Below are positions 3,477 to 7,874 of a stretch of 10,412 bases of DNA, piece after piece. The position numbers and the translations under genes are program-made. The notes beneath the pieces were generated by a model. The model had not been told where the DNA came from, searched no databases, and worked only from the letters and a program-made list of their open reading frames with translations. Location of the stretch: contig JAJCJC010000029.1 of the NCBI GenBank assembly GCA_020555605.1, positions 1 through 10,412 of the forward strand. The letters are read 5' to 3'. The DNA comes from a bacterium 210917-SL.2.15 (GTDB taxonomy: Bacteria > Bacillota > Clostridia > Oscillospirales > Oscillospiraceae). Numbering within the stretch: position 1 is the stretch's first letter; each line of letters starts with the position of its first letter.

Positions 3477-4302
3477 ATGTCGGAACTGCTGCGGCCAAAT
3501 TCAGATGTTCTGCTGAAAACGATACAGAAAAAGGAATCCTCTCCCAGAGGAAAGCTGAAAATTTTTTTCGGCTATGCCGCCGGAGTCGGCAAAACCTATG
3601 CCATGCTGGAAGCCGCGCCCCGCGCCAGAGAGGCCGGCATTGACGTGGTGGCTGGCTATATTGAACCTCATACCCGCCCGGAAACCATGGCCTTGCTTGA
3701 TGGTCTGGAGCAGCTCCCCACCAAAGGTGTTCCATACAAAGGCACTGAACTCCATAAGTTCGATTTAGACGGCGCACTCGCGCGCAGGCCCCAGCTGATT
3801 CTGGTGGATGAACTGGCCCATACCAATGCGCCGGGCTGCCGCTATGCAAAGCGGTATCAGGCCGTGCAGGAGCGCTTTTCCTGGCGGGACAGTCTGAAAA
3901 TGCTGGGCATCCTTGCTCTGTGCACGGCGGTGGGCTATTTCTTCTGGTGGCTCGGATTCAATGTAAATAACATCATTATGATTTACATTTTGGGCGTTCT
4001 GGCCGTTTCCATGGCGGCAACGGGCCGCAGTTACAGTTTGATTTCTTCCCTGCTTTCCGTCCTCATCTTCAACTGTTTCTTCACGCATCCATATTTTACT
4101 CTGATGAGCGATCCGGGATACCTGGTTACCTTTGGCATTATGTTTATCGTGGCCCTGCTGGTCAGTTCCCTGACCACCCGCATCAAAGGACAGGCTATTC
4201 TGAGCGCCAATAAGGCCTACCGCACGGAAATACTGCTGGAAACCAGCCGGAAGCTCCAGACCGCCGAAGGCCCCGAAGCCATTCTCTCGGCGACAGCCGC
4301 AC
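3477..4302 (+). pseudogene. kdpD: kdpD remnant: N-terminal ATPase and membrane domain, no kinase
   Basis: KdpD is a sensor histidine kinase of about 900 residues that controls kdp expression through KdpE. Here residues 1-128 match the KdpD N-terminal domain, with Walker A AAGVGKT at 34-40 and Walker B LILVDELAHTNAPG at 107-120. After KRYQ (125-128) the rest of that domain and the universal-stress-like domain, roughly 250 residues, are missing. The frame continues unbroken into four closely packed membrane helices (about 141-160, 164-181, 187-203, 214-233), the DUF4118 sensor bundle. A linker (KAYRTEILLETSRKL) follows, and similarity ends near residue 275. No H-box or kinase domain remains. 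The frame stays open to 4613, but from about 4303 it only reads the antisense of another broken gene. The product, if made, could not phosphorylate KdpE. Confidence 0.88.
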
Positions 4303-4916
4303 ATAGCGCGCCTTCGCCGATTCGTTTCCCCGCACATACCGATCCCAAATGGCCTGTTTTTCCGCCGCGCCGGGCGCCTTGTTCTGCAGCGCCTCCACCT
4401 CCTGTATCACCTTTTCATGGTAAAACATTCCGTATACGCGCTGCGCCTTGGCGGGCGTCAGGCGCAGCGCATCGGCGATGGCGGCAAAGGGAGCGTGCTC
4501 CTGCTCCCGCAGCGCGACCACACGGGCAATCGTTCTTTTCTACAGCCGCCGGCGAAAGGGCGGCAATCTCTCGAAAAAAGGCGGCGGCACCCCCGGCTCC
4601 CCCCTGCCGGTAGGCATCCAGAATCTCCCGGTATTTCTGCTCCAGATAGGCGCATGTCCTGATAGCATTCATAGGCGTCGTTAAACTCGACATGGACGGC
4701 GGAAATGCGCTCATGGCCCAGCGCCGTGGAAATATGGCAGATATAGCGACCGACCTGCTGGACTTTGATGCGCTGATAGATCTCCCGGGCGCGGGAGGCA
4801 GAAACGCCTTATTGCTCCCCCAACGCAGCAAAAGAATAGCCGCGCTGATCCCGCAGAAGCAGCATTCCATAAGCCCGCTGATCCTTTTTTAAGATGTCGT
4901 ATGGAGCCTCTTTCAA
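4303..4916 (-). pseudogene. Broken helix-turn-helix (sigma region 4-like) gene, 3' truncated
   Basis: Reading starts at TTG 4916, with AGGAGG seven bases upstream: LKEAPYDILKKDQRAYGMLLL, then SFAALGEQ, and TAA at 4809-4811. The frame resumes with GVSASRAREIYQRIK, a helix-turn-helix like sigma-70 region 4. A shift near 4655 leads to AYLEQKYREILDAYRQ, and a second near 4532 to ARVVALREQEHAPFAAIADAL, then RLTPAKAQRVYGMFY, a second similar helix-turn-helix. It ends where kdpD sequence begins, near 4303. Restored, it would be at least 205 residues with two DNA-binding segments. I know no precise family; a small regulatory or sigma-like protein of clostridial accessory DNA is likely. The intact promoter and start signals suggest the damage is recent. 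Confidence 0.6.
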
Positions 4917-5623: not shown

Positions 5624-7270
<1,647 letters not shown>

Positions 7271-7304: not shown

Positions 7305-7350
7305 TTATTCCACGATAGCCAGGATATCGCCCTGACGCACGATGGTGTAT
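7305..7350 (-). pseudogene. groES: Duplicated last 15 codons of groES
   Basis: On the minus strand this 46-bp stretch encodes YTIVRQGDILAIVE and TAA. It repeats the end of the full groES at 7483-7528 with four base differences. The only protein change is Val to Ile at residue 92 of GroES. It has no start of its own. It sits directly upstream of the groEL leader, so it may be the original 3' end of groES, with the intact gene now ending in the inserted copy. It is separated from that gene by a hairpin-rich insert. Confidence 0.8.
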
Positions 7351-7352
7351 CT

Positions 7353-7466
7353 CCCACGAAATTTCATTTCGCGGGAACCCATGATTTCACTTGCGCGGCA
7401 GAACTGAATTCTGCCGCACCAAGGTTTTGCGCCTACGCAAAACGCTTGTACGCCGCACTTGCGGCG
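7353..7466. repeat. String of four hairpins inserted in the groES-groEL spacer
   Basis: Four consecutive inverted repeats are visible. (1) 7353-7375, CCCACGAAAT against ATTTCGCGGG, loop 3; the single mismatch becomes a G-U pair on the minus strand. (2) 7390-7423, GCGGCAGAA against TTCTGCCGC, loop CTGAA, extended by CTTG/CAAG. (3) 7424-7443, GTTTTGCG against CGCAAAAC, loop CCTA. (4) 7451-7466, CGCCGC against GCGGCG, loop ACTT. Little sequence lies between them. No coding potential is apparent. The layout resembles a small non-autonomous repetitive element or a structured RNA within the operon transcript. Confidence 0.72.
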
Positions 7467-7482
7467 GCGCGCCGGAACCGCT

Positions 7483-7767
7483 TTATTCCACCACTGCCAG
7501 GATGTCGCCCTGACGCACGATGGTGTATTCCACGCCGTCCATCTTCACTTCGGTGCCGGAGTACTTGCTGGTAATGACCTTGTCGCCAGGCTTGACGGTC
7601 ATCTTGACCTCATTGCCGTCCACCATGCCGCCGGGGCCGACAGACACGACTTCTGCCACGGAGGGCTTTTCTTTTGCATTGCCGGTGAGGATCAGGCCGC
7701 CCTTGGTGGTTTCCTCCACCTCGACCATCTTCAGCACAACACGGTCAGCCAACGGATTGAGTTTCAT
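7483..7767 (-). CDS. groES: Co-chaperonin GroES (Hsp10)
   Basis: The lid of the GroEL chamber, which forms a ring of seven. The start is ATG 7767, with AAGGAGG eight bases upstream, giving 94 residues (MKLNPLADRVVLK). A longer frame back to 7845 runs into the CIRCE operator and is not used. The mobile loop that contacts GroEL is at about 17-34 (EEETTKGGLILTG region), followed by VVSVGPGG (41-48), KPGDKVITSKYSGTE (59-73) and the ending YTIVRQGDILAVVE. First gene of the operon, under CIRCE control. The end of this gene is repeated downstream, and the hairpin string begins about 16 bp after its stop on the minus strand. Confidence 0.97.
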   Translation of the reverse strand: MKLNPLADRVVLKMVEVEETTKGGLILTGNAKEKPSVAEVVSVGPGGMVDGNEVKMTVKPGDKVITSKYSGTEVKMDGVEYTIVRQGDILAVVE

Positions 7768-7829
7768 TTTGAGTTCCTCCTTATATAATGAGCATGTATC
7801 AACACAATGTTTCTCGCCGGTATAGGGCG

Positions 7830-7874
7830 ATACCAGCGTTAGCACTCAACGCGCCCGAGTGCTAACGCTGGTAT
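7830..7874. promoter_or_regulatory. CIRCE operator (HrcA binding site), extended palindrome
   Basis: TTAGCACTC (7839-7847), nine bases, GAGTGCTAA (7857-7865) is a perfect match to the CIRCE consensus bound by the heat-shock repressor HrcA. The symmetry goes on for another nine base pairs on each side (ATACCAGCG and CGCTGGTAT), giving arms of 18 bp. It begins directly downstream of the groES -10, so it overlaps the start site and the leader RNA. Heat or misfolded protein would relieve repression by limiting GroEL-assisted HrcA activity. Confidence 0.97.

Follow-up and report, generated by a model that had tools for sequence, protein, structure and literature searches.

Between groES and groEL of a groESL operon, the window (the whole 10,412-nucleotide stretch of DNA analysed here) carries an insert made of four successive hairpins and a second copy of the groES 3′ end (Table 1). 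The two gene-end copies, which we call X-left and X-right, form a direct repeat of 46 bp (7305–7350 and 7483–7528; 91% identity, four differences, spacing 178), as the original prediction had described. When read from the sequence, three of the four differences are at third codon positions, and by eye neither copy is clearly nearer to the groES genes of relatives. The stop codon in use by groES occupies 7483–7485 on the minus strand. The predicted hairpins are also borne out by folding: the minus strand of 7345–7485 folds at −66.1 kcal/mol (z −5.4), a value that none of 200 shuffles equals, and the plus-strand fold of the same region has a z of −4.3. On the plus strand the mismatch in hairpin 1 is C-A; the operon transcript has G-U there, so that a wobble pair forms in the transcript only, which had likewise been claimed. 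A perfect inverted repeat upstream of groES (7830–7874; GAGTGCTAAC and its complement) is presumably a CIRCE-like operator, so the operon is probably under HrcA control. Elsewhere in the window, a frame at 3477–4613, beside TrkA/TrkH-like genes, is KdpD-like by eye; most of its kinase part is missing, it appears to be internally shortened and it is likely a pseudogene remnant. The relatives returned by a protein search with the neighbouring methyltransferase were for the most part unnamed.

Table 1. Features of the groES–groEL region in the window, and positions of the hairpin core in two phage contigs
Feature	Position	Strand	Basis
groES, intact	7483..7767	−	ORF 7483–7845; start set at MKLNPL (7767)
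groEL, downstream in the operon	5624..7264	−	ORF list
X-right, gene-end copy in use by groES; its first base is the stop-codon boundary	7483..7528	−	repeat search
X-left, second groES 3′ end; truncated by the core on its gene-interior side, running into the native groEL spacer	7305..7350	−	repeat and spacer comparison
Hairpin 1 (stem-loop placed at 7353–7375), fixed left end of the core, contains the wobble mismatch	7351..7376		folding, family alignment
Linker ACCCATGATTTCACTTGC, of a type conserved across the family	7377..7394		
Hairpin 2, loop CTGAA (commonest loops in the family: GTGAA, ATGAA)	7395..7417		
Hairpin 3, family-wide arms CAAGGTTTT...AAAACGCTTG	7420..7448		
Hairpin 4, optional family module	7452..7465		
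Slot of the inverted breakpoint tag J′ in other copies	7466..7482		window copy score 5, chance level
Phage core, L312	4971–4996		
Phage core, L312	8670–8695		
Phage core, L313	1285–1310		

The insert is a derived state

The family and empty-site analyses were run on genomes of relatives, the closest of which were sought among 300 sampled. Over the groES tail and groEL, the nearest genomes are G076 (88% DNA identity), G153 (88%) and G210 (84%); the groES–groEL region of G153 was left out, as a contig end cuts it. In G076 and G210, only a short spacer (36 and 31 bp, respectively) separates groES from groEL and the insert is absent; the insert in the window is therefore derived. The native spacer of the window is the part adjoining groEL, so that the core and the second gene end are additions.

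Alignment of the spacers across relatives, which the original prediction had called for, gave these empty sites and also a locus with anatomy of the window type. The groES–groEL spacer measures at least 90 bp in 18 of 30 relatives (L091–L120), and several of the long spacers that were printed hold hairpin strings with no groES tail. One of the 18 (L093, in G085) has hairpins flanked by two copies of the groES end as in the window; since its break site differs, this insertion is independent of the window's. Other types of hairpin string occupy the spacer in several related genomes (L095–L104). The groES–groEL spacer looks like a hot spot for hairpin strings.

A dispersed family of hairpin strings

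When the window core was used as a DNA query, clear copies turned up in G076, G153, G210, G085 and G093 (best E-values from 5.5e-12 to 1.6e-6); the matches in G243 and G100 were weak. The family units are non-coding and about 130–200 bp long, with conserved linkers and with stems that vary yet remain complementary. On the window plus strand, the frame runs from hairpin 1 through a linker like ATTTcACTTGC to hairpin 2, whose loop is mostly GTGAA or ATGAA across the family, then to hairpin 3 (CAAGGTTTT..AAAACGCTTG) and to the optional hairpins 4 and 5. The left end of the core is fixed, and the right end lies after hairpin 3, 4 or 5. Copies were gathered by the exact hairpin-3 pattern, which misses degenerate copies and gives 18 in G085, 10 in G076, three in G153 and one in G210. 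The exact core pattern is present in 27 of 149 sampled relatives of G076, two of these calls (L215 in G013 and L225 in G338) being without family features and looking like chance; the reversed pattern gave 0 matches in the same genomes. At gathering score, Rfam returned no match in 10 sources, and the window region had only sub-threshold matches.

Hairpin 1 has 64 distinct arms among 81 aligned stems, and its pairs 6–10 are Watson-Crick in 96% of cases versus 34% when arms are swapped between copies. The original prediction had proposed a search for other copies and a covariance analysis, and had conceded that a lack of both other copies and conserved pairing would leave a one-off duplication with chance hairpins; this fallback is set aside, because relatives hold dispersed copies with conserved pairing. 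Wobble-type mismatches in hairpin 1, mostly at pairs 4 and 5, are A-C in 59 and G-T in 11 cases on the reference strand and are therefore predominantly G-U on the opposite strand, which in the gene-end type is the transcript strand of the adjoining gene. The corresponding A-C and G-T counts are 30 and 15 in hairpin 2, 20 and 15 in hairpin 4, and 2 and 0 in hairpin 3. Thus, the earlier suggestion that the RNA form matters gains from the asymmetry in hairpin 1, but the bias is weaker in other hairpins and single-stranded DNA could give the same pattern.

Duplicated gene ends and their boundary at the stop codon

Among 128 distinct exact copies, 121 have an alignable flank and 107 have at least 330 nt on both sides, these counts including the apparent chance matches L215 and L225. 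We set the threshold for a repeat at a score of 22, the mismatched-flank control having a 99th percentile of 21 and a maximum of 80; in a smaller first set, the top control scores came from pairs of flanks of the same locus or the same target gene. A direct repeat spans 76 of the 107 fully flanked copies. By genome, duplication was found in 16 of 18 copies in G085, a single-contig genome, 11 of 15 in G029, 10 of 11 in G096, 7 of 9 in G076, 7 of 7 in G081 and 6 of 7 in G052, and in none of the six fully flanked copies of G093 or the one of G210. Sixty of the 76 duplicated copies keep the usual left end of the core, the remainder being mostly tandem or variant. In 59 of 61 copies, a coding frame reads better across the right junction than across the left one; L206 departs from this, as does the window, where the left flank is the start of groEL. 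According to a codon model trained on six window genes, by which gene frames were picked, the repeat is a gene 3′ end in 42 readable copies and a gene 5′ end in 7. The original proposal of an element that invaded the gene end and restored the coding sequence there is supported.

We checked 19 target proteins against family libraries. Those above the Pfam cut-off are EF-G, sigma-70, tRNA pseudouridine synthase, SMC, glutamate dehydrogenase, glucose-6-phosphate isomerase, RNase III, rubrerythrin, an ABC ATPase and DUF1934. In NCBIfam, GroEL, D-aminoacyl-tRNA deacylase and an SsnA-like hydrolase exceed at least one cut-off, and dihydroxy-acid dehydratase, UppP, HinT, a response regulator and a deoxyribonuclease IV-like protein, some of them fragments, fall below it; one of the 19 has no family match in Pfam or NCBIfam. 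The distance from the insertion point to the end of the stop codon is 36–106 bp (median 64), and all that 61 insertion sites have in common is a weak motif (C at +2 in 79%).

The duplicated segment has a sharp boundary. In 31 of 42 gene-end copies, one of them a tandem copy with an offset of 160, the intact copy starts within 5 bp of the stop codon, and in 23 within 2 bp; four extend more than 10 bp past it and three fall more than 10 bp short. Where the two X copies are at least 97% identical, the boundary is within 5 bp in 17 of 19, and in L240 all 71 of 71 bases of X are identical and nothing is shared beyond. Identity in the 25 nt past the boundary is 0.42, versus 0.39 for unrelated flanks. 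Because near-identical X copies show the same boundary, it is not a product of decay of the untranslated part. In gene-start copies (for example, L230, L252 and L264), X reaches the ribosome-binding site or the start codon.

The differences between X-left and X-right are distributed over codon positions 1, 2 and 3 as 12:13:84 in 40 gene-end copies (ungapped X, coding score of at least 15, tandem junctions excluded), and the codon changes in the same copies comprise 81 synonymous and 23 nonsynonymous ones. Since an unselected left copy should mutate evenly over the codon, most of these differences appear to have arisen while both copies were functional, or else X-right may keep importing synonymous variants. 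A plain target-site duplication that decays in place is disfavoured by the codon positions and by the stop-codon boundary.

An inverted tag of the breakpoint beside the core

On the right side of the core lies a segment of 10–17 nt, J′, which is the reverse complement of the target at the breakpoint. We searched for it in 61 copies with a repeat score of at least 23, adequate flanks and a core left end 60–90 nt from CAAGG; ten of the 61, in which the repeat starts less than 8 nt from hairpin 3, were excluded. A J′ score of at least 10 was reached in 37 of the 51 testable copies versus 5 of 990 swapped controls. The tag follows the last core hairpin, whether this is hairpin 3, 4 or 5. Its match reaches the breakpoint in 33 of 37 copies (not in L138, L194, L251 and L264), begins 7–12 nt before it in 22 of 37 and ends 5 or 6 nt past it in 17 of 37. 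Among 27 copies with no recognisable X-left, three carry J′ (L222, L262 and L273); the high score of a fourth, L161, comes from a terminator's own repeat. L093, the independent groES insertion, has a plausible degenerate J′ by eye, and the window copy has no significant one (score 5). Where X-left and X-right differ within J, J′ agrees with X-right at eight positions, with X-left at one and with neither at two, a comparison of 11 positions only. The types of mismatch in J′ (6 versus 3, with 13 other) are too few to tell the acting strand. The original reading of the locus is upheld in part; it had overlooked the tag, the boundary at the stop codon and the predominance of synonymous differences.

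The core was also found in two contigs of a viral collection, L312, which encodes a portal and a capsid protein, and L313, which encodes a terminase, a capsid and a tail sheath protein. The L313 core is at the end of the terminase gene, with a duplication and, by eye, a perfect 19-nt J′. Both L312 cores are in gaps between structural genes, one of them directly abutting the stop codon of the neighbouring gene, and by eye there is no duplication at either copy.

Several arrangements depart from the common one. Tandem arrays of the form X-core-X-core-X, in which the unit of core, J′ and gene end is repeated at least twice, occur at L163, L153, L198, L164, L243, L249 and L254. Copies follow tRNA genes or terminators at L157, L137, L145, L161 and L156, and at L156, L157 and L161 a terminator-like hairpin flanks the core on both sides; perhaps the same process acts here at a transcript end instead of a stop codon. 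In G093 (L107, L122, L136, L143 and L160), the core lies within longer hairpin strings that begin, by eye, about 13 bp or less after the stop codon and have no gene-end duplication.

Probable recurrent entry into the same genes

Ten of 61 target gene families were hit in at least two genomes, and by our own reading the insertion sites coincide, or nearly so, in seven of these. Cores at these shared sites are 0.72–0.87 identical, against a background with a median of 0.73 and a 95th percentile of 0.82, and three of the ten pairs exceed that percentile. Within each genome, the X copies agree at 0.88–1.00. This points to repeated entry at preferred sites; some shared-site pairs may be inherited insertions, for example L151 and L124, whose hairpin-1 sequences are alike by eye. 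We considered a deep shared insertion followed by slow decay and rejected it: in four in-register groups X agreement is higher within than between genomes, and a gapped comparison of L195 with L238 likewise places X closer within a genome. The other comparison groups were out of register (values below 0.4) and uninformative.

Proposed mechanism and alternatives

Based on these findings, we tentatively propose, at somewhat less than even confidence, that the insert in the window is a copy of a mobile gene-end cassette, itself non-coding, which its tag would direct to the target and which would bring its gene end from another allele. The unit would consist of the hairpin core, the J′ tag, 0–80 nt and a complete gene end X, and it would lie at a site, J, within the terminal part of a conserved gene. 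There the resident end of that gene (X-left) would be severed and stay behind as a remnant, while the gene body would read seamlessly into the X copy of the cassette; the protein would remain whole because the gene body continues into this cassette-borne X. J′, commonly spanning from 7–12 nt before to 5–6 nt after the breakpoint, would be an address able to pair with the site. The sequences show the anatomy, the spread and the independence of insertions; the addressing role of the tag and the origin of the gene end in a different allele we infer: J′, in RNA or in a single-stranded core, would locate J; the left end of the core would be joined there; and the gene-body side would be joined by homologous recombination with another allele, the source of X-right. 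The acting form would be the strand bearing the G-U wobbles; in gene-end copies, the majority type, the transcript of the adjacent gene has this strand. Some observations sit uneasily with this model. J is intact in the cassette, so a J′-addressed nuclease should also cut its own gene. The agreement of X copies within a genome (88–100%) means that donors would need to be mostly conspecific, yet the flank after the stop codon shares nothing. Moreover, no enzyme was found that tracks the copies: in searches in which most genomes were drafts, so that misses are possible, RVT_1 was present in 6 of the 12 carriers and in 7 of the 12 genomes free of the pattern, Y1_Tnp in 3 of 12 and 7 of 12, and the TnpB domain in 1 of 12 and 2 of 12. 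The comparison of J′ with X-right and X-left covers 11 positions, the window copy is without a significant J′, four of the 37 J′ matches stop short of the breakpoint, and the copies in G093 and G210 are without duplication.

The main rival of the cassette model is replicative insertion within a single genome, in which staggered nicks, copying of the element through RNA or single-stranded DNA, and fold-back synthesis on the 3′ overhang would make X and J′ at once, X-right being altered later by recombination with other alleles. The order A-X-core-J′-X-Y is what a target duplication would look like, a J′ spanning the breakpoint is expected if fold-back synthesis copies the uncut strand, and a fixed left end with a right end after hairpin 3, 4 or 5 resembles truncated copying. 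That the same gene ends were entered in several genomes by cores mostly no more alike than unrelated ones also fits. However, a random stagger leaves the stop-codon boundary of X unexplained, even for identical copies, a freely decaying left copy should not yield the observed bias towards third codon positions, and J′ should match X-left rather than X-right. Nor do reverse transcriptase genes track the copies. We consider replicative insertion rather unlikely, though a serious candidate.

Homologous spread of an old junction would require no dedicated activity today: an ancestral tandem of core, J′ and gene end, or an excised circle, would recombine through X into empty alleles. The tandem arrays exist, the lengths of X fit recombination, the targets are conserved housekeeping genes, and the pair L151/L124 may be one inherited insertion, given its similar hairpin 1. 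Against this, only three of the ten shared-site core pairs are more alike than the 95th percentile of unrelated pairs, the break sites in the gene common to L219, L230 and L252 vary by 1–3 bp (by eye), and J′ is left unexplained; we think this origin unlikely. As for a tandem duplication that happened once and bears hairpins by chance, or an error of assembly, the window does hold a single copy, but the copies are dispersed, their linkers are conserved and their stems pair, 16 of 18 copies are duplicated in a single-contig genome and the reversed-pattern control gave none, which makes such an origin extremely improbable. The dispersed copies, paired stems and recurrent duplications also lend no support to the second option of the original prediction, a plain tandem duplication that captured a hairpin array.

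Relation to known elements and significance

Small bacterial repeats are usually thought to survive by landing between genes. REP and REPIN sequences, defined in outline as GTAG/CGTC-tagged palindromes of 20–40 bp, and BIMEs, mobilized by the Y1 transposase TnpA-REP, presumably resemble the present family in being short dispersed hairpins near gene ends with a mismatch in one stem. Unlike what would be expected of REP/REPIN elements, Y1 transposase was not found in 9 of 12 carrier genomes, mostly drafts, and REPs are not known to have a long gene-end duplication or a J′. TPRT retroelements (LINE/SINE elements and group II introns) have one fixed and one variable end and a target duplication; here, reverse transcriptase genes do not track the element in the sampled genomes (one was found in 6 of 12 carriers and none in the other 6), X is bounded by the stop codon and there is no Rfam match above the gathering score. 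To OMEGA/TnpB guide RNAs (IS200/IS605), we take the likeness to be a structured core adjoining a short match to the insertion site, but the present tag is a reverse complement, the target stays intact and TnpB occurs in 1 of 12 carriers.

The closest precedent for the rebuilding of a gene end is e14 in icd. Prophages e14 in icd and DLP12 at argU, as outlined in PMC6379469, break into a gene close to its 3′ end; the native end persists as a remnant, and the prophage provides a substitute for it. Judged from sequence, the hairpin element would similarly leave the native gene end as a remnant while the insert supplies the coding end; e14 and DLP12, however, are prophages of many kilobases with site-specific integration, whereas the present element has about 130–200 bp, many targets and an inverted tag. 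It also differs from gene-end-rebuilding integrative elements in that no integrase gene fits into 130–200 bp and there is no common attachment core. Families of bacterial stem-loop repeats have been catalogued in a paper whose main text contains neither "duplicat" nor "target site" (PMC2267715). Like the MITE-like and stem-loop repeats outlined there, the present units are of non-autonomous size, intergenic and folded. Unlike MITEs, they show no pair of terminal inverted repeats, the ends being dissimilar by eye, and instead of a short fixed target duplication they duplicate tens of bp ending at the stop codon; the hairpin-1 stems, moreover, are rewritten in most copies (64 arms in 81). A literature search over open-licence papers, which is weak evidence of absence, found no description of such an element. 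The kind of insertion seen here fits no small mobile element in our comparison.

A hairpin element thus enters conserved genes (those of GroES, GroEL, EF-G, sigma-70, SMC, RNase III and others) and leaves them intact. For annotation, this is a warning that short gene-tail fragments beside hairpin strings can be insertion scars. The trace that it leaves is that of a replaced gene end, and it suggests a possible address-guided mechanism of insertion, for the testing of which up to 18 recognised sites are available in one genome. It is conceivable, although we hold this wider view with more doubt than confidence, that a hairpin-string unit of gut bacteria and their phages, carrying its own complementary address of 10–17 nt, enters the ends of housekeeping genes and gives them replacement ends that run exactly to the stop codon (or, at gene starts, from the ribosome-binding site), its insertion thereby being harmless. 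For such a unit, the boundary at the stop codon would imply that a translated RNA, or else an unprecedented allele-swapping step, lies on the route by which the gene end is copied.
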